Origin: Parvibaculum sp.
GTDB taxonomy: Bacteria > Pseudomonadota > Alphaproteobacteria > Parvibaculales > Parvibaculaceae
Assembly: GCF_030694575.1 (NCBI RefSeq)
Contig: NZ_JAUYUS010000096.1
Location: 1-45,248 of the forward strand
DNA length: 45,248 nt
Direction of reading: 5' to 3'
Part shown: one piece after another, positions 23,941 to 42,155 of the stretch
Layout of the letters: each line of letters opens with the position of its first letter
Position numbering within the stretch: the first letter of the stretch is position 1
The notes under the pieces: model-generated
Seen by the model: only the letters and a program-made list of their open reading frames with translations
Told to the model about the DNA's origin: nothing
Databases searched by the model: none
Made by a program: the position numbers and the translations under genes

Positions 23941-25226
23941 ATGCCACTCCTCCGCGATGCGCGCCGTCTGGCGCTCTCCCGGCTTGTGTTACCGTTCGGT
24001 ATTGCCTTTCTCGCCCTGTTCCCGGCGACCGACGTCAACGCACAGCCTCAAACGCTGACCTTGTCCGATGTTCTCGCACGGACGATCGACTTCGACCCGA
24101 CGGCGAGAGCCGGTGCCGCACGTATACGGGCTGCCGAGGCACATCTCGACCAGGCGGGCACGCGACCCAATCCGGTTCTCGGTGTCGAAATGGAGGATTT
24201 TGGGGGATCGGGCAATTATTCGCGTTTCGATGAGACGTCGACCACGCTCTATTACGAGGAGCTGTGGGAACGTGGCGGCAAAAGAAAGGCCCGAACGGCT
24301 ATCGCCGGGGCGGAACTGGCGCTGGCGGAAAGGCGAAGGATCGCCAATCTTCTCGATCTGGCAGCCGACGTGCAGGCCGCCTGGGTCGAAGCCCTTGCAG
24401 CGCAGGCAGCGGCGGCGCTTGCGGACGACCGTCTCGCGGCGGTCAAACAGTTGGAAGGCGAGTTTCGGCGCCGCGCCGAGCGGGCGCTCGATCCGCAGTT
24501 CGTGCATGAGCGCGTCCTTGCAACGCTCTCTCAGGCGCAGATCGACAGCGAACAGGCAGCCCGGAGCGCGCGGGCGGCCCGCGCGACGCTCGCCTCCTAT
24601 TGGGGCGGGGACGGGGATTTCCGCCTCGATGAGACCGAGTTCACCCGGCTCGCGGCGCGCGAGGCGCGCGACGATGATTCTGCGGATCTTGCGCTTCTGG
24701 CGGCGGCGCGTGAGACGGCGGCCGCGCGTGTCCGTTTTGAGAGGGCCAATAGCGTCCAGGATGTTTCCCTGCGCGCGGGACTTCGTCACTTCTCGGCCGA
24801 TGACGATGTTGCGGTTGTCTTCGGGGTTTCGATCCCTCTCGGTGTTTACGACACCAACCGGGGCAATATCGAGCGGGCCCAGGCCGAACAACTGGCGGCG
24901 GAGATCGATATCGCTGCGGCACGGAACAGGCGGCAGCGGGAGATCGATCGCCTGACCGTCGCGCGATCCGCCGGTGCCGATGAAATCGGACGGCTCGATG
25001 CCGAGGTCCTTCCCCGGCTCGAACGGGCGGTTGCGCTGGTCCGCGAAGGATTCAACCGGGGCGGCACCGCTTTCACGCTTCTCGAGGTAACGGAAGCCCA
25101 CCGCGCCCTGACCGAAGCCCGGTCCCGCCGGATCGAACTGCTCCGCCGTTTTCATCTCGATGGCGCGCGCCTCGATCGCCTGAGCGACAGCCATGTTTCC
25201 CTCCTTTCCAATACAGAGCACAAGCA

Positions 25227-25230
<4 letters not shown>
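23941..25230 (+). CDS. czcC: CzcC-type outer-membrane channel (TolC superfamily)
   Basis: A 429-residue outer-membrane efflux protein with a signal peptide (about residues 1-34, ending VNA). It has the long alternating coiled-coil segments of the OEP family, seen as Ala/Arg/Glu-rich helices at about 55-200 and 255-410. The text DQAGTRPNPVLGVEMEDFGGSG matches CzcC/CusC-type channels. Its stop overlaps the czcB start (ATGA at 25227-25230). With CzcB and CzcA it should form the Co/Zn/Cd efflux complex. It is the only TolC-like channel in the window and may also have to serve the CusBA pump and ABC exporter nearby. Confidence 0.9.
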
Positions 25231-29652
<4,422 letters not shown>

Positions 29653-29747
29653 TCGGGCCCGCATGAAACCCGATGGGGACGTCCGTCCGATGAAAGAAGG
29701 AAGAACATCCTTGCCGGAACATATGAAATTTCCATTCGGATAGCGCC

Positions 29748-31070
29748 ATGCTTGGAATACTTGGACAAAGAACCTACAGGCATCTGTTCGCCGCGCAGGC
29801 GCTCTCCCTGATCGGCACCGGCCTTGCAACCGTGGCGCTTGGCCTTCTTGCCTATGAGCTTGCCGGTGCCGAGGCAGGCGCCGTGCTCGGGACTGCGCTC
29901 GCCATCAAGATGGCCGCCTATGTCGGGATTGCCCCAATCGCGACAGCCTTCGCGGCGCATGTGCCGCGACGCGCTCTGCTTGTATGCCTGGATCTGGTGC
30001 GCGCCGTGATTGTCCTGGGGCTCCCTTTCGTCACGGAGATCTGGCAGGTCTATGTGCTGATTTTCCTTCTGCAATCGGCATCGGCGGCTTTCACACCGAC
30101 CTTTCAGGCGACCATCCCCGATGTGCTTCCGGACGAACGGGACTACACGCGAGCGCTTTCCCTGTCTCGCCTCGCCTATGATCTGGAGAGTCTTCTCAGC
30201 CCCATGGCCGCGGCGGCGCTTCTGACCGTCATCAGCTTTCATGGACTGTTTGCCGGAACGTCGTTGGGCTTTGTCGCTTCGGCGGTGCTGGTGGTGACCG
30301 TGGTCCTGCCGGGTCCGCAGCGGCCCGAATATCGCGGAATATATGAGAGGACCATGCTCGGTCTTCGCATCTATCTCGCCACGCCGCGTCTGCGCGGACT
30401 GCTCGCGTTGAACCTTGCAGTCGCCGCAGGCGGCGCCATGGTCATCGTCAATACCGTCGTGCTGGTTCAATCGGAATTCGGCCTTGCGCAACAATGGACA
30501 GCGCTCGCCCTTGCGGCATTCGGTGGCGGTTCGATGGTTGCTGCCCTGGTCCTGCCGCGCCTTCTGGACAAGGTCGCGGATCGGACCGTCATGCTCGCAG
30601 GCGCCGGTCTGCTCATTTTCGGCCTTCTGGGCGCGGTCTTCGTGCCGGGCTATGGCTGGCTGTTGCCGCTATGGGCCGGGCTCGGTCTCGGCTACGGCAT
30701 TGCGCAGACCCCCGCCGGACGCTTGCTCCGGCGATCCGCCGCGCCGGAAGACCGGCCGGCCCTGTTCGCCGCGCAGTTCGCCCTCTCGCATGCCTGCTGG
30801 CTCATCACCTATCCGCTCGCGGGCTGGCTCGGCGCGGCAGCCGGGTTGCCCGCCACATCCGCCGTGCTCGCCCTGATCGCTGCGGGAGCGGCTGTTGCCG
30901 CGGCAGGCCTGTGGCCCCGGCACGACCCCGACACGATCGAGCATGAACATCGATCGCTCGATGACGGCGATCCGCATATCGCCGATGCTGCCCGCACCAG
31001 GCATGGCTTCCATCATGCGCATCCCTTTGTGATAGACAGCAACCATCGCAACTGGCCCCGGCCGGACTGA
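29748..31070 (+). CDS. MFS exporter with His-rich C-terminal tail (NreB-like)
   Basis: A 440-residue major facilitator with about 12 membrane helices across residues 1-395. The N-terminal text RTYRHLFAAQALSLIGTGLA is typical of MFS efflux proteins. The last 45 residues are cytosolic and His-rich: HDPDTIEHEHRSLDDGDPH, then ARTRHGFHHAHPF. This layout matches NreB, a nickel exporter with a His-rich tail. Iron, nickel or cobalt export is therefore the likely role, given the Czc genes before it and NicO after it. The substrate is inferred, not shown. Confidence 0.8.
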   Translation: MLGILGQRTYRHLFAAQALSLIGTGLATVALGLLAYELAGAEAGAVLGTALAIKMAAYVGIAPIATAFAAHVPRRALLVCLDLVRAVIVLGLPFVTEIWQVYVLIFLLQSASAAFTPTFQATIPDVLPDERDYTRALSLSRLAYDLESLLSPMAAAALLTVISFHGLFAGTSLGFVASAVLVVTVVLPGPQRPEYRGIYERTMLGLRIYLATPRLRGLLALNLAVAAGGAMVIVNTVVLVQSEFGLAQQWTALALAAFGGGSMVAALVLPRLLDKVADRTVMLAGAGLLIFGLLGAVFVPGYGWLLPLWAGLGLGYGIAQTPAGRLLRRSAAPEDRPALFAAQFALSHACWLITYPLAGWLGAAAGLPATSAVLALIAAGAAVAAAGLWPRHDPDTIEHEHRSLDDGDPHIADAARTRHGFHHAHPFVIDSNHRNWPRPD

Positions 31071-31101
31071 ATTTGGCGGCGCGGAAGGAAGGCATTGTCG
31101 A

Positions 31102-31539
31102 ATGCTCGATCTGGCCGCTTATGCGGGATTGTTCCTGAGCGCGTTCGTTGCGGCGACGCTCCTGCCGATGCAGTCGGAAGCCGTTCTTGTCGGCCTTCTG
31201 ATGACGGAGACGTATCCGGTCTGGGCACTGGTCGCGGTCGCCAGCGCCGGAAACATTCTCGGCTCGGCGGTCAATTGGGGGCTTGGAAGAGCTTTCATGC
31301 ATCTCGACGCCCGGCCGTGGTTTCCGGTCAGCGCGGCGAAGATCGAACAGGCAAGCGGCTGGTATCGCCGCTACGGGAGATGGTCGCTGCTCCTGAGCTG
31401 GATGCCGATCGTCGGCGATCCGCTGACGCTCGTCGCCGGCATCCTCCGGGAACCTTTTCCGACCTTCCTTGCGCTGGTCGCCATTGCCAAGACCTTGCGT
31501 TACATCGTCCTTGCCGCGACAGCCATCAATCTGGGGTGA
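31102..31539 (+). CDS. DedA/YqaA-family membrane protein
   Basis: A 145-residue inner-membrane protein with the YqaA arrangement: a first helix, a re-entrant-like segment (LLPMQSEAVLVGLL), LGSAVNWGLGR in the middle, and RYGRWSLLLSWMPIVGDPLTLVAG near residue 100. The GDPLT box is characteristic of this branch. DedA relatives include lipid scramblases and proteins needed for envelope homeostasis under proton stress. It lies 31 bases after the MFS gene and just before the NicO gene, so it is probably in the same transcript. Its role in metal efflux is unknown. Confidence 0.85.
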   Translation: MLDLAAYAGLFLSAFVAATLLPMQSEAVLVGLLMTETYPVWALVAVASAGNILGSAVNWGLGRAFMHLDARPWFPVSAAKIEQASGWYRRYGRWSLLLSWMPIVGDPLTLVAGILREPFPTFLALVAIAKTLRYIVLAATAINLG

Positions 31540-31545
31540 CCGGAC

Positions 31546-32259
31546 TTGTTTCAGGAGATCGCTACCCTTCAGCAGGAGATATATCGCGTGCTCGCCGGCG
31601 AAATCCGGATCTTTGCAGGCGAGGGTGGCTGGCTTGCCTTTGCAGGCTTCGTCCCGCTCGGCATCGCCTTCGGCGCCGTTCATGCGCTGATGCCGGGACA
31701 CAGCAAATCCGTTCTTGCGCTCTATCTTGCCGGATCGCCCGTCGACCTTGTGCGCGGCATCGCGACGGCGCTGGTTCTTTCCCTCACGCATGTCGCCATG
31801 TCCGTTCTGATCGTGCTCTTCGCCCTGCCGGTGGTTTCCGCCGTTCTCGGCAGTGCCGGCCGCGCGCCCTTGCTCGAGGATATCAGCCGCGGCTTTCTCG
31901 GGCTGATCGGGGTCTGGATGCTGTGGCGCGCCTTCCGGCCGCCGCGCCTGCGTCATCCCTCGTCCGAAGGCATGAGCGTCGGCGTGATCGCCGGCCTCGT
32001 TCCCTGTCCGCTGACGCTCTTCGTCATGACCTATGCCGTTTCGCGCGGCGCGCCCGAAGCGGGCCTCGCCTTCGCCGCCGTCATGATGATCGGCGTGGCG
32101 CTGACGCTTTGCGCCGTTGCCTGCGCAAGTATCTTTGCGCGGCAGGGCATAATGAAACTTGTCGCCGCGCGGCCTGTGCTGGTCGAGCGTGTGACGCGAG
32201 GGCTCGAGGGCGGCGTCGGCGGAGCGCTCGTCCTCATCGCCTTTTTTAAGCTCCTGTGA
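31546..32259 (+). CDS. NicO/RcnA-type nickel/cobalt exporter
   Basis: A 237-residue membrane protein with about six helices. The family's His motif is seen as VHALMPGHSKS (about residues 45-55), and the second conserved block is GLVPCPLTLFVMTYAVSRG (about 150-168). The long His-rich loop of E. coli RcnA is missing. The start is TTG at 31546, six bases after the YqaA-family stop, with GGGGTGA upstream. It would export Ni(II) or Co(II) from the cytoplasm into the periplasm, feeding the CzcCBA complex. It closes the plus-strand metal block. Confidence 0.82.
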   Translation: MFQEIATLQQEIYRVLAGEIRIFAGEGGWLAFAGFVPLGIAFGAVHALMPGHSKSVLALYLAGSPVDLVRGIATALVLSLTHVAMSVLIVLFALPVVSAVLGSAGRAPLLEDISRGFLGLIGVWMLWRAFRPPRLRHPSSEGMSVGVIAGLVPCPLTLFVMTYAVSRGAPEAGLAFAAVMMIGVALTLCAVACASIFARQGIMKLVAARPVLVERVTRGLEGGVGGALVLIAFFKLL

Positions 32260-32577
32260 GCTTGCCCTGTGGAGATGGAGCAACGGGGTATCCCGCGGGC
32301 CGCGAGGGTCTCTCCCAAGGCCGTGACGACAGGTTCCGTTGTTGCCGGAAGACACGCAGAGAGACCGACGTCTTCGAGAAGCTCGTGCGTCTTATCGTTT
32401 CGGCCAACCATCCAAGTCCTGATGTGAAGCTTGGAATTGATGACCGCTTTGCGCAAAGCGGACATACTGTCTGCACCCATCGTTTCACTACCGCTCCTGC
32501 CCCAACAGCGTCATTCATGATCGTTCTCGCACGACTTCTTGTTGACTTGCATCCGCACAGGGCCTAGGGAGACATCC
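32260..32577. other. Gene-free stretch before the trp leader
   Basis: I see no credible gene. A short inverted repeat AAGCTC/GAGCTT overlaps the NicO gene end near 32250 but has no following U-run. A -35-like TTGACT lies at 32542-32547. No convincing -10 that would leave the leader ribosome binding site on the transcript is visible, so the trpL-trpS promoter is unplaced. Confidence 0.4.
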
Positions 32578-32625
32578 ATGAAACGCACGATGATCATTGC
32601 CAAGCTTTGGTGGCTGGCCTGCTGA
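32578..32625 (+). CDS. trpL: Trp-rich leader peptide controlling trpS
   Basis: A 15-codon open frame encoding MKRTMIIAKLWWLAC with two adjacent Trp codons (TGG TGG at 32608-32613). It has a proper ribosome binding site (AGGGAG seven bases upstream). It ends just before a set of mutually exclusive hairpins and a terminator, 110 bases ahead of a tryptophanyl-tRNA synthetase gene. This is the arrangement of ribosome-mediated attenuation: slow decoding at the Trp codons should decide which hairpin forms. The peptide itself probably has no other role. Confidence 0.88.
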   Translation: MKRTMIIAKLWWLAC

Positions 32626-32677
32626 CAGGGCGGCCGGACGTTTCTTTGCATTCCCGGGGCCGCCGTATTGGGCGGCC
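32614..32677 (+). promoter_or_regulatory. Transcription attenuator: pause, antiterminator and terminator segments
   Basis: Segment 1 is CTGGCC (32614-32619), segment 2 GGCGGCC plus GG (32629-32637), segment 3 GGCCGCC (32658-32664) and segment 4 GGCGGCC (32671-32677). Pairing 1:2 (six pairs, one G-U), 2:3 (seven pairs) and 3:4 (seven pairs) is possible by direct inspection. Segment 1 begins right after the two Trp codons. A ribosome stalled there would cover it, free segment 2 to pair with 3, and prevent the 3:4 terminator. Confidence 0.85.
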
Positions 32678-32686
32678 TTTTATTTT
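32658..32686 (+). terminator. Intrinsic terminator of the trp attenuator
   Basis: GGCCGCC (32658-32664), a six-base loop and GGCGGCC (32671-32677), followed by TTTTATTTT (32678-32686): a seven-pair GC stem with a U-rich tract. It lies between the leader stop and the trpS start, so it can cut off trpS transcription when Trp-tRNA is plentiful. Confidence 0.87.
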
Positions 32687-32735
32687 GATGATCCTTCCAT
32701 GCGGCGTCCCCCTCATCTCAAGAGGATGATACCCC

Positions 32736-33737
32736 ATGACCAAACCCGTAATACTGACTGGCGACCGCACCACCGGCCCGCTACACATCGGCCACTTTGC
32801 AGGGTCGTTGCGCAACCGCCTGCGGTTTCAGGACAGCCACGAACAATTCCTGCTTCTGGCCGATACGCAGGCCCTCACCGACAACGCCCATGACCCGGAC
32901 AAAGTGCGGCGCAGCGTGATCGAAGTCGCGCTGGATTATCTCGCGATAGGGATAGATCCCGCGAAAACAACGATCTGCCTGCAATCGGGCCTTCCGGCCC
33001 TGGCCGAGCTTTCGATGCTCTACCTGAACTTCGTGACCGTCTCCCGGCTGGAACGGAATCCAACGATCAAGGATGAAATCCGGGCCCGCGGGTTCGGACG
33101 CGACATTCCGGCGGGTTTCCTGTGCTACCCGGCGGCGCAAGCCGGCGACATTACCGCCTTCAAGGCGACAGTGGTGCCGGTCGGTGAGGATCAGACCGCG
33201 CTAATCGAGCAGACCAACGAAATCGTGCGCCGCATCAATGCCACCGCCGGAAAGACGATCTTGCCGGAAGCGCAAGCTGTCATTCCGCAATTCGGTCGTC
33301 TGCCGGGAGTGGACGGGAAAGCGAAAATGTCGAAATCCAGCGGCAACGCGATCGCGCTGTCAGCCTCACCCGAGGCGATCTCGGCAGCGGTGAAAGCGAT
33401 GTTTACCGACCTCACCCATCTGCGGATCGAAGACCCCGGACAAGTGGAGGGGAATGTTGTCTTTGCCTGCCTTGATGCTTTCGACGAAGACCCTGCCACT
33501 CTGGAAGAGATGAAGGCGCAGTATCAGCGTGGCGGATTGGGAGATGGCAGGATCAAGCGTCGTCTCGACGACATTTTGCAGGCACTCATTGGACCGATCC
33601 GAACACGGCGCGCCGAACTGGCCGAAGACCATGCCTACGTGCTCGACGTGATCCGCAGCGGGACTGAAAAGGCGCGCAGTCGAACCGAGGTTACGAAGCG
33701 GGAGGTTGTGGAAGGTCTTGGGCTGTTCGTGTTGTAG
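32736..33737 (+). CDS. trpS: Tryptophanyl-tRNA synthetase, divergent (auxiliary-type)
   Basis: A 333-residue class I synthetase that charges tRNA-Trp. The HIGH motif is at residues 17-20 (GPLHIGHFAGSL) and KMSKS at 197-201. GEDQ near 150 and the ATP- and Trp-pocket surroundings are present, and the length is normal. The opening text LTGDRTTGPLHIGHFAGSL differs from the FSGMQPTGxLHLGNYLGA form usual in alphaproteobacterial housekeeping TrpRS. It resembles the second TrpRS type found in some bacteria, where it can resist the inhibitor indolmycin. With the Trp-codon leader and terminator upstream, its expression should rise when charged tRNA-Trp is short. Whether a housekeeping trpS exists elsewhere cannot be seen here. 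Confidence 0.93.
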   Translation: MTKPVILTGDRTTGPLHIGHFAGSLRNRLRFQDSHEQFLLLADTQALTDNAHDPDKVRRSVIEVALDYLAIGIDPAKTTICLQSGLPALAELSMLYLNFVTVSRLERNPTIKDEIRARGFGRDIPAGFLCYPAAQAGDITAFKATVVPVGEDQTALIEQTNEIVRRINATAGKTILPEAQAVIPQFGRLPGVDGKAKMSKSSGNAIALSASPEAISAAVKAMFTDLTHLRIEDPGQVEGNVVFACLDAFDEDPATLEEMKAQYQRGGLGDGRIKRRLDDILQALIGPIRTRRAELAEDHAYVLDVIRSGTEKARSRTEVTKREVVEGLGLFVL

Positions 33738-34325
33738 TCAGGCATCGCCTCCGGGCCGTCTATTTTCCGGACAGCCCGACAGATGTCATCCAAGGGCAGA
33801 AATCGGCGCAGTTCAGACACTCAGCCAGCAGCAACGATTGAGAGGTGTAACTCCTGCCGGCCCGAGCACTCTTGACCGGCTTCTCCTAGTGGAGCAGTGG
33901 CAGCATGGGAAATGCATCTTCTTGAGGCTGGCCGCTTTCGACTAATGCTTCGCCGTCTGGTGGCTACCACGCTTTGGTTTAGACAGGACTCCGAAAATGA
34001 CCTCTGAGTTCACCCAATCGGCCGTTTGACAACATTGACGCTGGACAAGTCGCCAACCTCACGCCCGGCCCTACCGAACAAGCTTGTTTCCTGATCAAAG
34101 AAGCGAAACTTTTTCCGAGACCACACGCCACTCACAGCATCGTAGTCGCATCTTATGCCCCCAAATGGTCGATGCGGGTCGCACTTTTTGGTATCCAAAG
34201 TGCATGCAGTCGCATCTTTTAGCCGACTCGGGAGAGCTAGTTGCAGCTTTTGGGTGATTTTCCTCAGACAGTGCGACAGTCGCACTTTATGCGATCCGTC
34301 ACACCCGGGAGGGAGCCCGGACGAT
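33738..34325. other. Gene-free stretch between trpS and tRNA-Gln
   Basis: A 588-base non-coding stretch of lower GC than its neighbours. Frames of up to about 80 codons exist on both strands, but none has a ribosome binding site, a family resemblance or consistent codon bias. Its right part holds the repeated TCGCA(C/T) elements annotated separately, next to the tRNA-Gln 3' end. I read it as decayed or non-coding island-end DNA. Confidence 0.5.
34144..34289 (+). repeat. Cluster of four direct repeats plus one inverted copy beside tRNA-Gln
   Basis: Copies of RGTCGCAYYTTW occur at 34144-34155, 34177-34188, 34208-34219 and 34278-34289, in the same orientation at irregular spacing. An inverted partner AGTGCGA at 34270-34276 forms a perfect 7-base dyad with TCGCACT at 34280-34286. 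The cluster ends 37 bases from the tRNA-Gln 3' end. Iterated short direct repeats beside a tRNA 3' end are what arm-type integrase sites of an attachment region look like. That function is an inference. Confidence 0.65.
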
Positions 34326-34400
34326 TGGCTGGGGCGGGAGGGTTCGAACCTCCGAATGGCGGAATCAAAATCCGCTGCCTTACCACTTGGCTACGCCCCA
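34326..34400 (-). tRNA. tRNA-Gln (anticodon TTG)
   Basis: The minus strand folds into a full cloverleaf: acceptor TGGGGCG/CGCCCCA, D stem GCC/GGC, anticodon stem GCGGA/TCCGC around loop TTTTGAT (anticodon TTG), and T stem GGAGG/CCTCC around TTCGAAC. The 3' CCA is encoded at 34328-34326. Its 3' end faces the accessory region, the usual orientation for island insertion. Confidence 0.96.
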
Positions 34401-34578
34401 GCAGGGCTCGGGGCCTTCGGGCGGCCTGCCTCGCGAAATGCGGCGGAACATACCGGCATCGCCGATGGGGCGCAACCGGCCCTCCCTTCCCGAAGAAGCG
34501 CGGAAAGCGCGAAATCCGCCTGCGTTCGCCCTTGCCCGCCCCCGATTTGGGAGCTATAACGCCGCCTCGAATTGGATA

Positions 34579-34655
34579 CGGAGTGTGGCGCAGTCTGGTA
34601 GCGCACCTCGTTCGGGACGAGGGGGTCGGAGGTTCGAATCCTCTCACTCCGACCA
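34579..34655 (+). tRNA. tRNA-Pro (anticodon CGG)
   Basis: Acceptor CGGAGTG/CACTCCG, D-arm GCGC/GCGC, anticodon stem CCTCG/CGAGG around loop TTCGGGA (anticodon CGG), T-arm GGAGG/CCTCT-type with TTCGAAT, and encoded CCA at 34653-34655. It lies 178 bases from the divergent tRNA-Gln; nothing else is seen between them. Confidence 0.96.
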
Positions 34656-34744
34656 TTCGACTTTCCCCAAAAATCAGGGCCTGCCCGCCGGCGCGTTTTG
34701 CCGCCCGGTTTGACACGCTCCCTGCCCGTCCTATGATGCGCCCG

Positions 34745-34957
34745 CTCGATGGTTCCGCGCACCGTCCGTCATGGCGGTTCGTGGAGGCAAGAGGGAACAG
34801 GGTGAGGCGTCTTCCGCCGATGCCCTGGCTGCCCCCGCAACTGTAAGCGGCGAGGCTGCGTTCCAAACGTGTCACTGGTTGCCCCCGTCCTTTCGAGGGC
34901 AGGCAACCGGGAAGACGGAACGAGGCCGACGACCCGTGAGCCAGGAGACCTGCCACC
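34745..34957 (+). promoter_or_regulatory. Cobalamin riboswitch aptamer
   Basis: Conserved adenosylcobalamin-aptamer blocks occur in order: a GGTGAGGCG-type early segment, GCCCCCGCAACTGTAAGCGG at 34831-34850, TCACTGG near 34868, CCGGGAAGACGG near 34910, and the B12 box GAGCCAGGAGACCTGCC at about 34938-34954. The outer boundaries are approximate. It precedes the vitamin B12 receptor gene btuB and should switch it off when cobalamin is bound. Confidence 0.95.
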
Positions 34958-35039
34958 GAGTTCGTCATCTGCCGTGGCCGGGGGTCTGCCAGGGGGACGG
35001 TGCGCCCGTGTGCCTGTCGCATCCGGGTTTTCCGTTTTT

Positions 35040-35096
35040 CTGTCTCTCTCCCTGCACCGGCGCCATGCGGCCGGGGCGGCCGCGCCAGAGAGACAG
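35040..35096 (+). promoter_or_regulatory. Hairpin overlapping the btuB ribosome binding site
   Basis: CTGTCTCTCT (35040-35049) and AGAGAGACAG (35087-35096) form a perfect ten-pair stem enclosing a GC-rich loop that can pair further. The 3' arm reaches into AGGA (35095-35098), the likely ribosome binding site nine bases before the btuB ATG. It is probably the riboswitch expression platform, acting on translation. Confidence 0.7.
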
Positions 35097-35107
35097 GACT
35101 TAACTCC

Positions 35108-37081
35108 ATGAAGAAGACAGGCTGGGGGGCCTATGCTGCCCTTACCCTTTGGGCGTTCGCGGCGATACCCGCGCATGCCGGCGAAACGATCGACGTGCCG
35201 GAGCTGCTGATTTCGGCCGGCGTCGAACCCGTCCCGACGAAGGAAGTCGCGAGTTCCTATACGATCATCACCTCGGAAGAGATCGAGCGGCATCAGTACC
35301 GCACTCTGCCGGAAGCCCTGACGTCGGTGCCCGGCATTCATGTCGTGCAATCCGGCGGAGCGGGCGCGGTAACATCCGTATTCAGCCGCGGGACGAACTC
35401 CAACCAAACGCTGGTGCTGCTCAACGGCCATCCAATCGGCGATCCGTCCGCGCCCACAGGAGGCTTCAACTTCGCAGACGTGACACTGGACAATGTCGAG
35501 CGCATCGAGGTCGTTCGCGGCCCGCAAAGCGCGTTTTATGGCAGCCAGGCGATCGGAGGCGTCATCAATATCATCACAAAGACGGGCGCCGGCGGTGCAA
35601 GGACCACCGCACGTATTGAAGCGGGCACGCTGGGCACACTCAATACGAATGCCACCACGGGCGGCAGCTTCGGCGCTTCGGATTACTTCTTCTCCCTGTC
35701 GCGACAGGCAACCAATGGCAGCGACATCACGCCGTCGCATCTGCGAGCGCAACAAGGAGAACCCAAGGAGGAGGACAGCTACAGAAACGTGACAGTCGCC
35801 GGCAGCATGACCTCGAAACTGTCGGAATATGTCTCGTCCCAGATCAATGTCCAGTATATGGACGCACACATGGACTTCGATGAAGGCGGCAGCATCAATC
35901 TGGCGACACCGCCGTTCTTCGCCAGTGTCTATGAAGGTTACAACAATGAAGGGCGCAGCAAGGAGTTGTTTGCTTCCGGCAGCCTGACCGGCAACTTTGC
36001 CGATGGCCGCTGGCGTCCGAAACTCTCCGCAAGCTACACGCGCTATGACCGTAACATCGCCGACGATCCGGACGCGATCCAGCCGACCTACATCGAGGAC
36101 ATCGACAGCGAGAGCGAACGCCTGACGGTTGCCCTCGAAAATGCGTACGATCTCAGCACCTCGCAACGGTTGGCCTTCGGTGCGAGCTTTGCCTACGAGT
36201 CCTTCAAGGTGACAGGGTTTCAGGATTTTTCCGGCTTCGTCATCACCACGGATTCAGATGCCGATACGAACTCCGCCGCCATCTATGCCGCCGACCACCT
36301 TACCTTCGGCGAGCGTTGGTTCGCCACCGTCGCCGGCCGCTACGATATGCCGAAGGAATTCGACGACACGTTCACCTATACCCTCTCGGCAGGCTACTAC
36401 CATCCGGAAACCGATACCCGGTTGACGGCGAGCCATGGAACGGGCTTCAAGACGCCCTCGCTCTACGACCGCTTCGGGTTTTCATCCAACAACTTCGGCG
36501 GGACCTTCACGGGCAACCCCAACCTGACACCTGAAAAGAGCAAGAGCTGGGAGCTTGGCATCGATCAGGGTTTGATGGATGGCAAAGTGACCGGCGGCAT
36601 CACCGGGTTTCACAATACGATTGAGAACGCTGTCTTGCAGACGCTGACGACCGCCGTCAACCAGCCCGAATTCCGCACACATGGCGTCGAGACTTACATC
36701 GAGATCAACCCGTTCGAAAATCTCACCGCGCGGATCGACTACACATGGACGATCATCGATTCCGATTTTACAGGCGGGGTACTGACACGACGTCCCCGGC
36801 ATGCCATCGGCTTCACGACGGCGTGGCAGATCGACGATCGCACGACGCTCTCGGGAGCCGTCAACTATATCGATCTCTATCGCGACATCGACCGGGAGAC
36901 CGGCGCGTACATAAACCCCGGCAGCTACACCGTGGTCAGGATTGCCGGAGCGCACAAGTTGACGGAATGGCTTGAGCTGACGGCACGCGTCAACAACCTG
37001 CTCGACCGCCAATACGAGCCCGCGAACGGCTTCCAGGCCGCCGGCATCGAAGCACTCGCCGGTATCGCCGTCACCTTCTGA
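35108..37081 (+). CDS. btuB: TonB-dependent vitamin B12 receptor BtuB
   Basis: A 657-residue outer-membrane receptor importing cobalamin. The signal peptide is residues 1-24 (ending AHA). A TonB-box-like segment (PELLISAG) comes next, then the plug domain with RTLPEALTSVPGIHV and NVERIEVVRGPQSAFYGSQAIGGVINIITK, and a 22-strand barrel ending in Phe (GIAVTF). The frame extends upstream, but ATG at 35108 gives the signal peptide and has AGGA at nine bases. The cobalamin riboswitch immediately upstream makes the substrate assignment strong. A hairpin terminator follows. Confidence 0.95.
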   Translation: MKKTGWGAYAALTLWAFAAIPAHAGETIDVPELLISAGVEPVPTKEVASSYTIITSEEIERHQYRTLPEALTSVPGIHVVQSGGAGAVTSVFSRGTNSNQTLVLLNGHPIGDPSAPTGGFNFADVTLDNVERIEVVRGPQSAFYGSQAIGGVINIITKTGAGGARTTARIEAGTLGTLNTNATTGGSFGASDYFFSLSRQATNGSDITPSHLRAQQGEPKEEDSYRNVTVAGSMTSKLSEYVSSQINVQYMDAHMDFDEGGSINLATPPFFASVYEGYNNEGRSKELFASGSLTGNFADGRWRPKLSASYTRYDRNIADDPDAIQPTYIEDIDSESERLTVALENAYDLSTSQRLAFGASFAYESFKVTGFQDFSGFVITTDSDADTNSAAIYAADHLTFGERWFATVAGRYDMPKEFDDTFTYTLSAGYYHPETDTRLTASHGTGFKTPSLYDRFGFSSNNFGGTFTGNPNLTPEKSKSWELGIDQGLMDGKVTGGITGFHNTIENAVLQTLTTAVNQPEFRTHGVETYIEINPFENLTARIDYTWTIIDSDFTGGVLTRRPRHAIGFTTAWQIDDRTTLSGAVNYIDLYRDIDRETGAYINPGSYTVVRIAGAHKLTEWLELTARVNNLLDRQYEPANGFQAAGIEALAGIAVTF

Positions 37082-37098
37082 CGCCGTCCAAACAAGAC

Positions 37099-37128
37099 AA
37101 AGGCGCGGGAGCGATCTCCCGCGCCTTT
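37099..37128. terminator. Bidirectional intrinsic terminator
   Basis: AAAGGCGCGGGAG (37099-37111), a four-base loop and CTCCCGCGCCTTT (37116-37128) form a 13-pair stem with A and T runs on its flanks. It sits between convergent btuB and the enoyl-CoA hydratase gene and can serve both. Confidence 0.92.
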
Positions 37129-37142
37129 CCTTTTGTCCCGCC

Positions 37143-37991
37143 TCACCTGCCGGTGAAATTCGCCGCGCGCTTCTCCACGAAATGCGCCACGCCTTCCTTG
37201 AAGTCGGCGCTGCCGAAGCTCTTCTGCATTTCGCTGTCGCCCACTTCCAGCGCGTCGTTGAAATTCTGGAACAGCGCCTTCCATATCTGCGCCTTCATCA
37301 CCGCCATGGAACGCGGCGATACGGTTTCGGACAGCAACTTCGCGTAGTCCATGACGTTCGCCATGAAGTTTTCCTGCGGGAACACCTTGTTCACGAGGCC
37401 CATGCGCGCCGCCTCCTCCGCCATCACCTTGCGGCCGGACATCAGCAGGTCGAGCGAATGCGCGGGACCGACGAGCTGCGGCAGCAGCCATGAGATACCG
37501 TGCTCGGCGATCAGCCCGCGATTCGCGAAGGCCGTCGTGAATTTCGCCTCCGAGCCCGCGAAGCGCATGTCGGCGTAGAGCGCGAAGACGAGGCCGAGGC
37601 CCGCCGCCGGTCCGTTGATCGCGGCGATGATTGGCTTCCTCACCTGCATCAGATAGCCGAAGCGGCCGCCATAGTGCGGCGAAACATCGGGGCCCAGCCC
37701 GCTTGCGAAATCGTATGTCTCCTCGCGCGCGGCCGTCGCAAGTTCGCGGTCTTCCCATTTACCCGGCTTGATCGACTGCAGCAGGTTCATGTCGGCGCCC
37801 GCGCAGAAGCCGCGTCCCGCGCCGGTAATGACGATGACGCGCACATTATCGTCGGCGACAGCGGCGGCCATCGCCTGCTTCACGCTCTTCTCCATCGCCG
37901 CCGTCCAGGCATTGAGCTTGTCCGGCCGGTTGAGCGTCAGAATCGCGACGCGGTCCTTCACTCCGTATGTCAGGTCTTCATAATCGCTCAT
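37143..37991 (-). CDS. Enoyl-CoA hydratase/isomerase family protein
   Basis: A 282-residue crotonase-fold enzyme, probably in fatty-acid or aromatic-acid beta-oxidation. Landmarks are LTLNRPDKLNAW (about residues 17-28), the oxyanion-hole loop ITGAGRGFCAGADMNLL (55-71) and KPIIAAINGPAAGLG (about 114-128). The region where hydratases carry their two catalytic Glu reads ANRGLIAEHGISWLLPQLVG, without the standard pattern. It may thus be an isomerase or act on an unusual substrate. It is divergent from a second crotonase gene at 38105, with a 113-base spacer between them that must hold both promoters. Confidence 0.88.
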   Translation of the reverse strand: MSDYEDLTYGVKDRVAILTLNRPDKLNAWTAAMEKSVKQAMAAAVADDNVRVIVITGAGRGFCAGADMNLLQSIKPGKWEDRELATAAREETYDFASGLGPDVSPHYGGRFGYLMQVRKPIIAAINGPAAGLGLVFALYADMRFAGSEAKFTTAFANRGLIAEHGISWLLPQLVGPAHSLDLLMSGRKVMAEEAARMGLVNKVFPQENFMANVMDYAKLLSETVSPRSMAVMKAQIWKALFQNFNDALEVGDSEMQKSFGSADFKEGVAHFVEKRAANFTGR

Positions 37992-38104
37992 TTGCTCCTC
38001 CCTCGTTTCCCGGTGTCTTTCTTGTCGGTGCCGTTTGCGTCAGTATAAGCAGAAGCCCGCACCGTTTGAGAAGTGCCGGAGCGAAACGTCCGGGGAGGAC
38101 CGAC

Positions 38105-38914
38105 ATGGCCGCCGATTTCCGCGAAATACTTTTCGAGACGCCCGAGCCGCATATCGCGAAAGTGACGCTCAATCGCCCGGCACAGATGAATGCCTATTCG
38201 ACGCTGCTCTGCGAGGAGCTTGTGCGGGCGCTCGACATCTATCTGCGCGACGACGATCTCAGATGCCTCATTCTCACCGGCGCGGGCCGCGGTTTCTGCG
38301 CGGGCGGAGACATCAGCGGCGCGGATGCGGAGCACGAAGCGCTGATGAAGTCGCAGCTCTCGCATGCCCGCGAGATGCGCGACGGCATGCACCGCGTCAT
38401 CCTCGCGCTGTCGCGTCTCGACAAGCCGACCATCGCCATGGTGAACGGTCCCGCCGTCGCGGGCGGGCTCACGCTCGCGCTTGCCTGCGACATGCGGATC
38501 GCAGCCGACACGGCGAAGCTCGGCGACACATCGGGCCGCTTCGGCCTGCTGCCCGACGAAGGCGGTGCCTGGCTCTTCCCGCGTTTCATGGGTCTCGACC
38601 TCGCTCTGAAGATGACGATGCTGGCCGAGGTCTACAGCGCCGACGAAGCGGAATATCTCGGGCTCGTCACCGAGGTCGTGCCCGCCTCGGAGCTCGAACC
38701 CCGTGTGATGGAGCTTGCACGCGGCCTTGCCGCCCGGGCGCCGCTCGCGGTCCGTCTCGCCAAGTCGATGATGATGCGGGGCCAGACGCTCTCGCTGGAG
38801 CAGTCGCTGGGCGACGCCGCCCTTTCCGTGATGATCGCCAATCCGAGCGCGGATGTGCGCGAAGGGGTGAAGGCCTTCTTCGACAAGCGGGAACCCAGAT
38901 TCAAGGGCAAATAG
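38105..38914 (+). CDS. Enoyl-CoA hydratase/isomerase family protein
   Basis: A 269-residue crotonase-fold enzyme. It shows KVTLNRPAQMNAYS near the N-terminus, the oxyanion-hole loop LTGAGRGFCAGGDISGAD and KPTIAMVNGPAVAGGLTLALACD. The catalytic-loop region reads SGRFGLLPDEGGAWLFPRFMG, again not the textbook hydratase form, so the exact reaction is open. ATG at 38105 has GGAGGA six bases upstream. It is divergent from the related gene at 37991. The two are only moderately alike and are not a recent duplication. Confidence 0.88.
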   Translation: MAADFREILFETPEPHIAKVTLNRPAQMNAYSTLLCEELVRALDIYLRDDDLRCLILTGAGRGFCAGGDISGADAEHEALMKSQLSHAREMRDGMHRVILALSRLDKPTIAMVNGPAVAGGLTLALACDMRIAADTAKLGDTSGRFGLLPDEGGAWLFPRFMGLDLALKMTMLAEVYSADEAEYLGLVTEVVPASELEPRVMELARGLAARAPLAVRLAKSMMMRGQTLSLEQSLGDAALSVMIANPSADVREGVKAFFDKREPRFKGK

Positions 38915-38984
38915 GTTGCGCTGCGACAAGATGTGCACGGAACGGTCATGGCGCCCGGCCCTTCATCCGGCTAGGATTGTCGTT

Positions 38985-39383
38985 ATGGGGTTGATTTCGA
39001 CATACAGGCCAAGGGGCCAGTTCGCGCGTTTCGGCGCCGCGCCCATGCTCGCCTTTCTGGCGATCTTCCTCCATGTCGCCGCGCCGCTGGCCCTCCAGCT
39101 CGCGGGTCCGGCCACGCAGAGCCTCTTCAAAACGGTCATCTGCTCGGGCGGCGAGGCGAAGACCGTCTATCTCGACGCCGAGGGCAACCCCGTCGAGCCG
39201 GCCACGCCCGGCAAGGCGAGCCATGACTGCAAATCCTGCGTCCACCATTGTGCGGCCACACTCGCGTCGCATCTAATCCTCGCCGGTCCCGGCTGGGCCC
39301 TGCCCGCGCCGCTCGCGCTGATTTACACGGTTGCCGAACCGGCCTTTGCCTCCACGGCTCATCCCCGCGCTCCTCCTGCCTGA
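38985..39383 (+). CDS. DUF2946-like exported protein with Cys/His cluster
   Basis: A 132-residue protein with an N-terminal hydrophobic segment (about residues 15-38, PMLAFLAIFLHVAAPLALQ). A metal-ligand-like cluster, HDCKSCVHHC, lies near residue 85, with another Cys at TVICSGG. This is the usual look of DUF2946 proteins, which accompany copper genes. ATG at 38985 was chosen for its AGGA site; the frame is open further upstream to the crotonase stop. It precedes a TonB-dependent receptor and a YcnI-type protein in the same direction. Copper handling is inferred from that company. Confidence 0.7.
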   Translation: MGLISTYRPRGQFARFGAAPMLAFLAIFLHVAAPLALQLAGPATQSLFKTVICSGGEAKTVYLDAEGNPVEPATPGKASHDCKSCVHHCAATLASHLILAGPGWALPAPLALIYTVAEPAFASTAHPRAPPA

Positions 39384-39468
39384 CGGCTCGCTACCTCTTC
39401 GCATAGTCCGATAACGACGCCCGCAGCGCTTTGCCGCCAGCGGGCGCGAGCCATGCAGTCAGGGCAAC

Positions 39469-41607
39469 ATGAAAATTACCTTTTCGTTCCTTCGCGGGGC
39501 GGCGCTCGCGGCGCCATTCCTCGCCGCTCCCGCTTTCGCACAGACGGCCGGGGGCGATGCCGTCGTCCTCCCCACCCTCACCATCACCGCCGATCAGCCG
39601 GACGAGGACAATCCGCTCGCCGGCCTCGATCCCGCTTCCCACAAGCCCGGCACGCTCACCGTGCCCGGCGTCATCGAGGCGCAGCGGGAAATGTCGCGTA
39701 TCCCGGGCGCCGTCAGCCTGGTGCCCACGTCGCGCTACGAAGACAGCTACGCCCACAATCTTGAAGACGTGATGGACTTCACGCCCGGCGTCTATGCGCG
39801 CAAGCGGTTCGGCGCGGAGGTCCGTCTCTCCATTCGCGGTTCCGGCCTCAGCCGCGGTTTTCACATGCGCGGGCTTGAACTCCTGCAAGACGGCGTGCCC
39901 TTCAACCTCGCCGACGGCGCCGCCGATTTTCAGGAAATCGACCCTCTGATCGCGCAGCACATCGAAGTCTACAAGGGCGGCAACGGATTGCGCTTCGGCT
40001 CGTCGACGCTCGGCGGCGCCATCAATTTCGTCACGCCGACCGGTCATACGGCGCAAGCCGCGAACCTCGTCCGCCTCGAAGGCGGCAGCTACGGCACGGC
40101 GCGCGTTCACGCCCAGGCCGCGCGTATCTATGGCGCGACCGACATCTTCGCCGCCATGAGCGGCAACCTTGTCGATGGTTACCGCGATCAGGAGAAGGAA
40201 GAGAGCGTCCGTTTCTCCGCCAATCTCGGTCACCGTTTCAACGAGCGGGCCGAAACGCGCTTCTATCTGCTGTCCAACACGGTCGATCAGGAACTGCCGG
40301 GTACGATCAGGCTCGACCAGGTCGAGAACAATCCCGAGATGGCCAATCCCGGCAATGTGACGCTCAACCAGCAGCGGAACGTCCGTTCCATCCGTTTCGC
40401 CAACAAGACGGCGATCAAACTGGACGATGGCGGGCTTTTCGAATTCGGCGGCTATGCGGGTTACAAGCGGCTTTACCATCCGATTTATCAGGTGATCGAT
40501 CAAAGCGGGCCGCTCGCCGGTCTCTTTGCCCGCCACAGCACGGAAAGCCTCCTCGCCGGTCATCGCAATGTGTTCACGCTCGGCAGCGACGTCTCCTGGG
40601 GCGAGGTCGATGCGAAGCAATACACGAACCTTTCCGGCTCGCGCGGCGCTCTTCAGGCGAGCGGTACGCAGAGCTCCACCAACCTGAAGCTCTATGCCGA
40701 AAACCAATTCTACGTCGTGGAGACCGTCGCGCTCGTCGGCGGCATGCAGGCAATCCATTCCTACAGGAAGTTCACGAACGACCTCTTGCCCGCGCGCAGC
40801 GACTCCGTGGACTTCACCTCCGTGAGCCCCAAGGCGGGCATTCTCTGGGACGTCATGGAGGCGGTGCAGGTCTATACCAATGTAACGAGAAGCTACGAGC
40901 CGCCCACTTTCACCGAGCTCACCCAGGGCACGTCGCAATTCGTGCCGCTGGATCCGCAGCGCGCATGGACGGCGGAAATCGGCACGCGCGGCACATGGGA
41001 AACCGTCGCGTGGGACGTCGCGCTCTACCGCGCCGAGGTCAAGGGCGAGATGCTCGCCTTCACCGTTTCGCCCAGCATTCCGGCCGCCACCTTCAACGCA
41101 GACGAGACGATCCACCAGGGCGTCGAGGCTTCCCTCACGCTCGACGTCGGCGCCTACGGTCTCGACAGGTTGTTGCCGGCGGAAAGCCGGCTGCTGCTCG
41201 AACAGGCCTATATGTATAACGACTTCGCCTTCGATGGCGATCCGGTCTATGGCGACAACAAGCTTGCGGGTATGCCGCCCCATGTCTATGTCGCCGCGCT
41301 TCGCTACAAGGCGCCCGCGCCCGACGGTCTCGGCTGGGATGCCGCGCCGAAGGTGGAATGGGTACCGGATGGCGGCTATGTCGATTATGCCAACCGGCTG
41401 AAGGCGCCGGGCTACGCGACGCTCGGCTTCGAAGGCGGTATCGACATCACGCATGGCGTGCGTCTCTTCCTCGACGCGCGCAACCTCACCGACAAGCGTT
41501 ACGTTTCCACCTACAGCACCATCACGGATGCCGCGGTCGTGGCGACGAACGTCTTCTATCCCGGCGAGGGCCGCAGCGTCTTCGCGGGCCTCAAGGTCGC
41601 CTTCTAA
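39469..41607 (+). CDS. TonB-dependent receptor, probably for a metal or metal complex
   Basis: A 712-residue outer-membrane receptor with a signal peptide (residues 1-24, ending AFA). A TonB-box-like stretch (LPTLTITA) follows, then a plug domain (HNLEDVMDFTPGVYARKRFG, RLSIRGSGLSRGFHMRGLEL, GNGLRFGSSTLGGAINFV) and a barrel ending in Phe (FAGLKVAF). The plug resembles FecA/siderophore-type receptors. The flanking DUF2946 and YcnI genes point instead to copper or a chelated copper compound. The start has only a weak AGGG site. The YcnI gene follows after 11 bases with its own strong site. Confidence 0.88.
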   Translation: MKITFSFLRGAALAAPFLAAPAFAQTAGGDAVVLPTLTITADQPDEDNPLAGLDPASHKPGTLTVPGVIEAQREMSRIPGAVSLVPTSRYEDSYAHNLEDVMDFTPGVYARKRFGAEVRLSIRGSGLSRGFHMRGLELLQDGVPFNLADGAADFQEIDPLIAQHIEVYKGGNGLRFGSSTLGGAINFVTPTGHTAQAANLVRLEGGSYGTARVHAQAARIYGATDIFAAMSGNLVDGYRDQEKEESVRFSANLGHRFNERAETRFYLLSNTVDQELPGTIRLDQVENNPEMANPGNVTLNQQRNVRSIRFANKTAIKLDDGGLFEFGGYAGYKRLYHPIYQVIDQSGPLAGLFARHSTESLLAGHRNVFTLGSDVSWGEVDAKQYTNLSGSRGALQASGTQSSTNLKLYAENQFYVVETVALVGGMQAIHSYRKFTNDLLPARSDSVDFTSVSPKAGILWDVMEAVQVYTNVTRSYEPPTFTELTQGTSQFVPLDPQRAWTAEIGTRGTWETVAWDVALYRAEVKGEMLAFTVSPSIPAATFNADETIHQGVEASLTLDVGAYGLDRLLPAESRLLLEQAYMYNDFAFDGDPVYGDNKLAGMPPHVYVAALRYKAPAPDGLGWDAAPKVEWVPDGGYVDYANRLKAPGYATLGFEGGIDITHGVRLFLDARNLTDKRYVSTYSTITDAAVVATNVFYPGEGRSVFAGLKVAF

Positions 41608-41618
41608 GGAGAATACCG

Positions 41619-42155
41619 ATGAAGAATCTTTCCATCGCTCTCTGCGCCGCCGCGATTTTCGCGGCGGCCGCGCCCGCCTCCGCCCATGTCACGCTCGGCC
41701 AGGAGAGCGCCCCGGCGGGCAGTTACTACAAGGCCGTCTTCCGCGTGCCGCACGGCTGCGCGGGTTCGGCGACGACCTCCGTCTCGATCCGCGTTCCCGA
41801 AGGCGTGATCTCCGTGAAGCCGCAGCCGAAGCCCGGCTGGACCGTCGCGACCGAAAAGGCCGCCTACACGCAGACCTACGAAGTGCATGGCAAGCCGGTG
41901 TCCGAAGGCGTGGTGAAAGTGACGTGGCAGGGCGGCCCCTTGCCCGACGACCAGTTCGACGAATTCGCCTTCCTCGCGAAGCTGCCCTCCGACCCGGAAG
42001 CCATGATGCTCTTCTTCCCGGTCGAGCAGACCTGCGAGAAGGGCTCGATCGCCTGGGATGAGTTCGCCGCGCCGGGCGTCGATCCGCATTCGCTGGAGAA
42101 ACCTGCCCCAGCCCTCATGCTGATCCATGGCGAGGGCCACGAGCATCATCATTGA
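41619..42155 (+). CDS. YcnI-like (DUF1775) copper-binding exported protein
   Basis: A 178-residue periplasmic protein. The signal peptide ends ASA after residue 22, exposing His23 (HVTL) as the new N-terminus. In YcnI an N-terminal His together with a Glu and a Trp forms a mono-histidine brace for Cu(II). The family text is clear: RVPHGCAGSATTSVSIRVPEG, KPKPGWTV-like KPQPKPGWTV, and DEFAFLAKLP. The C-terminus adds HGEGHEHHH, a further likely metal site. AAGGAG precedes the ATG. It is co-directional and nearly contiguous with the TonB-dependent receptor, suggesting shared copper traffic. Confidence 0.9.
   Translation: MKNLSIALCAAAIFAAAAPASAHVTLGQESAPAGSYYKAVFRVPHGCAGSATTSVSIRVPEGVISVKPQPKPGWTVATEKAAYTQTYEVHGKPVSEGVVKVTWQGGPLPDDQFDEFAFLAKLPSDPEAMMLFFPVEQTCEKGSIAWDEFAAPGVDPHSLEKPAPALMLIHGEGHEHHH

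Follow-up and report, generated by a model that had tools for sequence, protein, structure and literature searches.

A second tryptophanyl-tRNA synthetase gene behind a probable Trp-leader attenuator in Parvibaculum sp. and other Proteobacteria

A gene for tryptophanyl-tRNA synthetase (TrpRS) that stands behind a short open reading frame with two adjacent Trp codons and a series of competing RNA stems raises the question of whether the synthetase is governed by attenuation, and, if so, what such an enzyme is kept for. We considered this question for a locus in Parvibaculum sp. (assembly GCF_030694575.1), the window being the whole analysed stretch of 45,248 nucleotides of contig NZ_JAUYUS010000096.1. 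An earlier note, made from the letters of the window, had proposed an alphaproteobacterial counterpart of an attenuated Streptomyces enzyme, that is, an inducible back-up TrpRS carried at the end of a metal island and undescribed as a regulatory system. This interpretation is partly supported, and we put at roughly three in four the probability that the locus is a horizontally moved, inducible, attenuated back-up TrpRS.

The sequence features described at the outset, namely the 15-codon leader with TGG TGG, the three pairings, the U-tract and the 110-base gap before trpS, were confirmed letter for letter (Table 1). Read directly, the leader ORF begins with the ATG at 32578 and ends with the stop codon at 32623-32625, the trpS ATG at 32736 comes 110 nt after that stop, and the trpS stop codon is at 33735-33737.

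Table 1. Features of the leader and trpS locus, in positions of the window
Feature	Position	Strand	Basis
Whole unit (promoter, leader ORF, attenuator, trpS)	32541..33768	+	Borders from locus comparison
-35 box TTGACT	32542..32547	+	Read directly; relatives
-10 box TAGGGA (weak TATAAT match), 17 nt after -35, 7 nt before ATG	32565..32570	+	Conserved position
Leader peptide ORF MKRTMIIAKLWWLAC, 15 codons, probably read from leaderless mRNA	32578..32625	+	ORF seen directly; relatives similar
Two Trp codons TGG TGG (putative sensor)	32608..32613	+	Read directly
Element 1, pairs with 32632-32637 (6 pairs, one G-U)	32614..32619	+	Read directly
Element 2, GGCGGCC; putative antiterminator with element 3 (32658-32664), 7/7	32629..32635	+	Read directly; A4 comparison
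Element 3, GGCCGCC	32658..32664	+	Read directly; A4 comparison
Element 4, GGCGGCC; terminator stem with element 3, 7/7	32671..32677	+	A4 pairing and covariation
U-tract TTTTATTTT	32678..32686	+	Read directly; terminator scan
Element 4', GCGGCG; second complement of element 3, 5' of trpS ribosome site	32701..32706	+	Read directly; relatives
trpS ribosome-binding site AGGA, 9 nt 5' of ATG	32723..32726	+	
Auxiliary tryptophanyl-tRNA synthetase, TrpRS-II kind, 333 aa	32736..33737	+	Pfam, TIGRFAM, PDB matches

The product of the window trpS is a full TrpRS (PF00579; TIGR00233 at 214.5 bits, cut-off 176.75), and we assign it to the TrpRS-II kind by its best PDB matches, 2a4m and 1yi8, which are chains of Deinococcus TrpRS II. 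The housekeeping trpS that a back-up role presupposes was found when the genome was searched for it: a second TrpRS, scoring 319.7 bits and about 30% identical to the window copy, is encoded on another contig. In the family, a close relative of the window TrpRS occurs in 4 of 40 genomes, always alongside a housekeeping copy. A search of the class at E 1e-60 or better gave matches in 33 of 385 genomes: the window's own, five with 66-75% identity and a further group in the 46-57% range. This last group comes from genomes of 0.6 to 2.2 Mb, and at least seven of its members (G055, G062, G093, G106, G110, G141 and G167) had no housekeeping-type TrpRS at 1e-80 among the 142 genomes searched; three of the five at 66-75% (G078, G145 and G160) do have one at that threshold. 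At window positions 33144-33146 the enzyme has Gly137, adjoining the invariant Asp138, where 92 of 93 aligned TrpRS-II rows have Ala.

Comparison of loci did not bear out the placement at the end of a metal island, and delimited instead a self-contained unit with unrelated flanks. Between window positions 26001-42000 and locus L227 the only common stretch is 32541-33768, at 96.1% over 1228 nt, and two further loci, L228 and L229, which have flanks in common with each other, share window positions 32534-33738 at 81.5-81.6%. The unit, 1.23 kb from the -35 box to 31 nt beyond trpS, is thereby found in three unrelated surroundings (the window, L227 and the pair L228/L229), a distribution that suggests movement as a unit. 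Of 5426 genomes in the E. coli collection, 2 carry a close relative of the plasmid copy known from E. coli, in both cases on a plasmid. Phage records gave 37 matches, and the two with 60-80% identity come from 254-kb records of Acinetobacter. Just past the unit in the window lie genes for tRNA-Gln (34326-34400, minus strand) and tRNA-Pro (34579-34655, plus strand); upstream of it, at 23941-29652 and 31546-32259, are the OEP, HlyD-type and AcrB-type genes of an RND efflux set and a gene for a NicO-like protein.

The named-genome scan used the best 80 of at least 585 confirmed loci, so that the leader counts hold for close relatives only, and copies were counted in 79 of the 80 host genomes (L080 was left out). 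A leader was counted under a strict rule if it began with ATG, ran for 9-25 codons, had WW close to its stop and lay 60-270 nt upstream of the match. Among these best 80 loci such a leader was found in 36 of 47 genomes with at least two TrpRS versus 1 of 32 with a single TrpRS (Fisher p 1.3e-11), and in 36 of 44 versus 1 of 20 when the non-proteobacterial titles were set aside; of 1519 random places taken from these loci, 4 had one. This strict count replaces a looser one (41 of 80), which takes in weak matches such as L105 and L154. When an equal rule for all of the best 80 loci called for one Trp near the stop, the counts were 40/47 versus 7/32 (random places 152/1528), and with a phased TTG box added they were 32/47 versus 2/32 (random 20/1528). 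Corrected for kinship, the WW rule gave on average 3.5 of 8 pairs for and 0 against (median p 0.25), the even one-W rule 3.5 for and 0.2 against, and the one-W rule with phased box 4.4 for and 0 against. The tendency of the leader to follow a second copy is clear in direction, and its independence from kinship is not proven.

Among these best 80 loci, 11 of the 47 two-copy genomes have no leader that passes the strict WW rule. A one-W ORF is present in four of them (L101, L106, L111 and L141), and in L143 there is a WWW ORF outside the strict rule. L155 is part of a biosynthetic cluster, the gene in L093 comes after another gene, and L110 and L117 are without any leader. The remaining exceptions, L133 and L134, are from Clostridium and have leaders that we take, from a sequence motif, to be T-box-like; such leaders would sense uncharged tRNA-Trp ahead of the same kind of enzyme, and they would differ from the window leader in direct tRNA binding and in having no leader peptide. 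Counting against the second-copy rule, the single-copy metagenome-assembled genome L099 has a WW leader. A possible further case is L061, a locus in a 0.9-Mb genome, which has a WW leader ORF at 1359-1410 before its TrpRS-II gene, with TTGACA and a -10-like box. Within Undibacterium, U. terreum, with two TrpRS, has a one-W leader and phased box, and two of three single-copy rows have no leader, L118 also having a one-W ORF.

The arrangement extends beyond the Alphaproteobacteria. In a tree the window copy clusters, with good support, together with eight other rows that have leaders, and a WW ORF lies upstream in 9 of 33 family and class loci, among them four of the five class loci that show 66-75% identity. 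Housekeeping trpS has a WW ORF before it at 1 of 27 loci in the family and at 3 of 27 in the class, and in none of these ORFs is the WW close to the stop. The leader was present in 11 of 14 plasmid loci fetched from 151 matching records, the plasmid leaders spanning alpha-, beta- and gammaproteobacteria, and one Salmonella enterica trpS2 carries a WW leader. An alphaproteobacterial counterpart is thus too narrow a description.

The proposed link to indolmycin was strengthened by two observations, the gene cluster of a relative and a changed indolmycin-contact position. The genome of P. luteoviolacea strain HI1 encodes three TrpRS, two of the TrpRS-II kind (L156 1971-10459 and L157 100-10771 are the loci of these two copies). 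One has a WW leader and adjoins violacein genes (VioA, VioB and VioD over cut-off); the other has no leader, and the genes around it encode two aminotransferases, methyltransferases, a glyoxalase and a PaaK-like ligase; a LuxR-type gene adjoins this set. The published P. luteoviolacea indolmycin cluster, as given in a portion of PMC5069768, includes aminotransferases, an aldoketomutase, a methyltransferase, a tryptophan-tRNA ligase and luxR, and the HI1 set resembles this cluster, known there from other strains of the species. By this analogy, the TrpRS-II gene that has no leader looks like a member of an indolmycin cluster. Two other settings were noted: a TrpRS-II gene after a coproporphyrinogen-oxidase-like gene and an FAD-oxidoreductase gene in R. 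leguminosarum (L065 4965-5999, from annotation), and one after a gene end that appears similar by eye in Salinarimonas (L093 4267-5259). The setting in L065 and L093 might be a cluster for a TrpRS inhibitor with its self-resistance gene.

At the position of the indolmycin-contact His, the window enzyme has Gln45 where the housekeeping TrpRS has His. We take the aligned His to be Bs H43, from a sequence motif and the residue offset in the PDB match. Bs H43 is the indolmycin-contact His, and Asn there gives resistance, according to an excerpt of PMC4899734. Gln is present at this position in 93 of 93 TrpRS-II rows and marks the kind of enzyme and not a back-up role, because sole-copy TrpRS-II have it too. 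From these observations we infer that the window enzyme may resist such inhibitors.

Given these properties, the unit might work as follows. RNA polymerase would start at or beside the leader ATG, and the 5' end would be read as a leaderless mRNA. With ample Trp-tRNA, the ribosome would reach the leader stop and cover element 2, the 3:4 terminator would form and trpS would stay untranscribed. Shortage of Trp, or an indolmycin-like compound inhibiting the housekeeping TrpRS, would make charging fail; the ribosome would then stall on the two Trp codons, elements 2 and 3 would pair and trpS would be made, so that the auxiliary enzyme could charge tRNA-Trp in place of the blocked housekeeping TrpRS.

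The alternative that survives best accepts an attenuated auxiliary TrpRS and gives it another purpose, as a spare or higher-affinity enzyme for growth under Trp starvation or stress, induced together with the trp genes and unrelated to drug resistance. A leader of this kind would sense Trp-tRNA regardless of the cause of its loss, S. Typhimurium trpS2 was 2-fold up with trp biosynthesis genes in biofilm (in an excerpt of PMC2805695), and the authors of a transposon study propose that trpS2 may substitute for trpS (in the text available from PMC3487940). Plasmid occurrence, the unrelated sites and the copy in an indolmycin-like cluster nevertheless look more like resistance, and starvation alone scarcely explains a distant second enzyme; we regard a starvation or stress role in place of resistance as unlikely, though well within reason.

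A ribosome site for the leader had been claimed, and this is doubtful: the GGGAG before the ATG overlaps the -10 position, and relatives have a phased promoter instead. The sequence TTGAC is invariant among six aligned close relatives; a consensus promoter scan misses the -10 box of the window. Because the earlier choice of ATG had relied on the -10 score, the count was repeated on 38 leaders with a single possible ATG, a set that excludes the window with its two ATGs. Of these, 30 have TTG at -38 to -33 of the leader ATG, 29 have TA at -15 to -11, and 24 have both boxes phased; in three control windows the count was 0. A ribosome-site core, by comparison, precedes 5 of the 38 leader ATGs versus 54 of 59 trpS starts, from which the leader ORF is probably without a ribosome site. 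Since the boxes are phased to the ATG and the ribosome site is missing, the mRNA probably begins at the ATG, that is, it is probably leaderless. According to part of PMC7298713, the 5' end of S. meliloti trpL mRNA is the ATG of its leader ORF, and the window leader resembles this trpL/rnTrpL system in its Trp codons, its competing stems and, probably, this 5' end.

For the RNA, a terminator scan picked up the hairpin at 32656-32679, one of 3 terminator-like sites found in the window against 1.5 expected. Folded alone, the window leader gives -45.1 kcal/mol (z -2.1, modest, with 4 of 200 shuffles equally low), and the case for an attenuator depends on comparison because the lone leader is only modestly stabler than shuffled sequence. 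We therefore compared relatives, keeping 59 leaders of 60 tried (L143 was left out), in groups drawn by eye after the sequences had been seen: A4, 32 leaders of U-tract type; A5, 12 without a clear U-tract; and A6, 5 from gammaproteobacteria. Ten of the 59 fall outside these (L004, L005, L061, L073, L081, L102, L116, L120, L124 and L139), and L078 was left out between alignments A4 and A7.

In A4, 99.1% of the cells of the 3:4 terminator are paired and 22 carry a double change; none of 500 shuffles reached its covariation score. The 2:3 antiterminator is paired in 85.3% of A4 cells, versus 21-72% when slid; its covariation in A4 was not beyond chance, 198 of 500 shuffles reaching the score, and we describe this predicted pairing as conserved and not proven. 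The 1:2 helix appears in the consensus folds too, in a different register in A4. Invariance of the WW codons in A4 is no independent evidence, because WW was the criterion by which leaders were picked. A shuffle test of the pairing chain, sequence by sequence, gave p <=0.05 in 24 of 59 and is weak for GC-rich sequence. The expectation that stems and Trp codons would be conserved across relatives was thus upheld for the codons, which recur, and for the terminator, which covaries, and not for the antiterminator, whose covariation does not exceed that of shuffles.

The leaders without a U-tract suggest that attenuation of transcription may not be the only layer. The last arm in A5 adjoins the trpS ribosome site, and its 3:4' helix is 98.9% paired, with a covariation score that 4 of 500 shuffles equalled or exceeded; in the five sequences of A6, 8 of 13 pairs of the 3:4' helix show double change. 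The leader could then act partly on translation, the terminator being one of two layers, and element 4' near the ribosome site, with a helix next to or across that site in some relatives, controlling initiation. Against this, the window has a terminator with a U-tract, and in equilibrium folds of 'starved' and 'replete' states the accessibility of the ribosome site shifted by more than 0.2 in 3 of 59 leaders, one of them in the expected direction (1 up and 2 down), which leaves the sign of such a layer ambiguous and means that equilibrium folding does not discriminate the states. For these reasons we think a translational layer decidedly improbable.

That the leader is a decayed or chance one, a WW ORF with functionless hairpins, would agree with the ease with which GC-rich sequence forms hairpins and with a z of only -2.1, and it is very hard to reconcile with strict leaders at 36 of 47 loci versus 4 of 1519 random places and with the covarying terminator. 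A partnership of the enzyme with nitric oxide synthase for Trp nitration, as in Deinococcus, whose TrpRS II has such a role cited in a portion of PMC9437257 and is the same kind of enzyme and the best solved match, we find scarcely credible, as the synthase partner was not found in the window's own genome as assembled (no PF02898 domain, the same search being positive in 2 of 14 control genomes).

A search with Rfam 15 gave weak matches in the window stretch, well under the gathering score, with no family assigned, and no match to the leaders of 8 relatives; absence from Rfam does not exclude an attenuator. We built a covariance model, R1, from 31 leaders. In the family R1 reached at least 60 bits in 4 of 40 genomes, exactly those with a second TrpRS and the rest at most 35, two of the four being in the model and the other two near-copies. 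In the class three TrpRS-II leaders ranked first, followed by WWW leaders of trpE-like genes; because 155 of 289 class genomes match at E 0.01, only scores of about 60 or more are trusted. R1 scores the type without a U-tract low (G078 and G160 at 29.5 bits). Among 18 lower-scoring matches inspected, three were WWW leaders before trpE (the gene read by eye), at 35.6-45.7 bits, and four (L194, L199, L222 and L226) lay at contig ends and gave no usable reading. Matches to R1 were also met in the window's genus, at L225 and L223, and at L225 a WW ORF MNAIAFAMRNWWTT and a terminator precede a gene that resembles, by eye, a SAM methyltransferase. In L195 and L197 an ORF that resembles a leader contains WYRWY and is accompanied by a terminator-like hairpin.

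How far is such a system new? In Streptomyces, Vecchione and Sello are said to have described, in 2010, an auxiliary TrpRS that is antibiotic-resistant and controlled by attenuation. The window shares with the Streptomyces system a second TrpRS gene, a Trp-codon leader, a terminator and likely induction on charging failure; it differs in phylum, in its spread over three proteobacterial classes, in its probably leaderless mRNA and in its self-contained 1.23-kb unit, the Streptomyces system being compared by description only. An attenuator has been predicted before trpS2 of S. avermitilis, as an excerpt of PMC1262725 has it. Unlike the attenuators of trp operons, the window leader precedes a tRNA synthetase gene. 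An origin from the genome's own trpE leader was rejected, as there is no WW leader before either trpE-like gene, both of which score under the family cut-off. A leader CDS lies before trpS in Caulobacter crescentus, on the evidence of a part of PMC4117421, and the likeness to the window is that of a small translated ORF before an alphaproteobacterial trpS, at that level alone. In the open-access literature searched, a coverage that excludes Panina 2001 and Vitreschak 2004 on proteobacterial attenuators, we met no account of the element in Proteobacteria. The claim of an undescribed system is accordingly to be qualified: its kind is known in Streptomyces and a leader CDS has been seen in Caulobacter, and no proteobacterial description was found.

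Beyond the attenuated back-up TrpRS of the window, we propose tentatively, with the odds somewhat against it, an unnamed proteobacterial cis-element: a leaderless Trp leader, its last arm placed in a terminator or in a helix next to the trpS ribosome site, that moves together with a back-up TrpRS, the two forming a minimal inducible resistance cassette, and that fades once the housekeeping TrpRS is lost. If this is true, natural TrpRS inhibitors would be common enough to maintain an on-demand spare enzyme in circulation, and a variety of Proteobacteria, including Klebsiella, Salmonella and plasmid-bearing E. coli records, would hold an inducible second TrpRS that might blunt TrpRS inhibitors. 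The attenuator would then report Trp charging in a simple way. Through the association of the leader with a second copy, one can test when an auxiliary synthetase needs control of its own, and the leader mRNAs, if leaderless as they probably are, would form a natural set of leaderless small ORFs beyond the trp operon.
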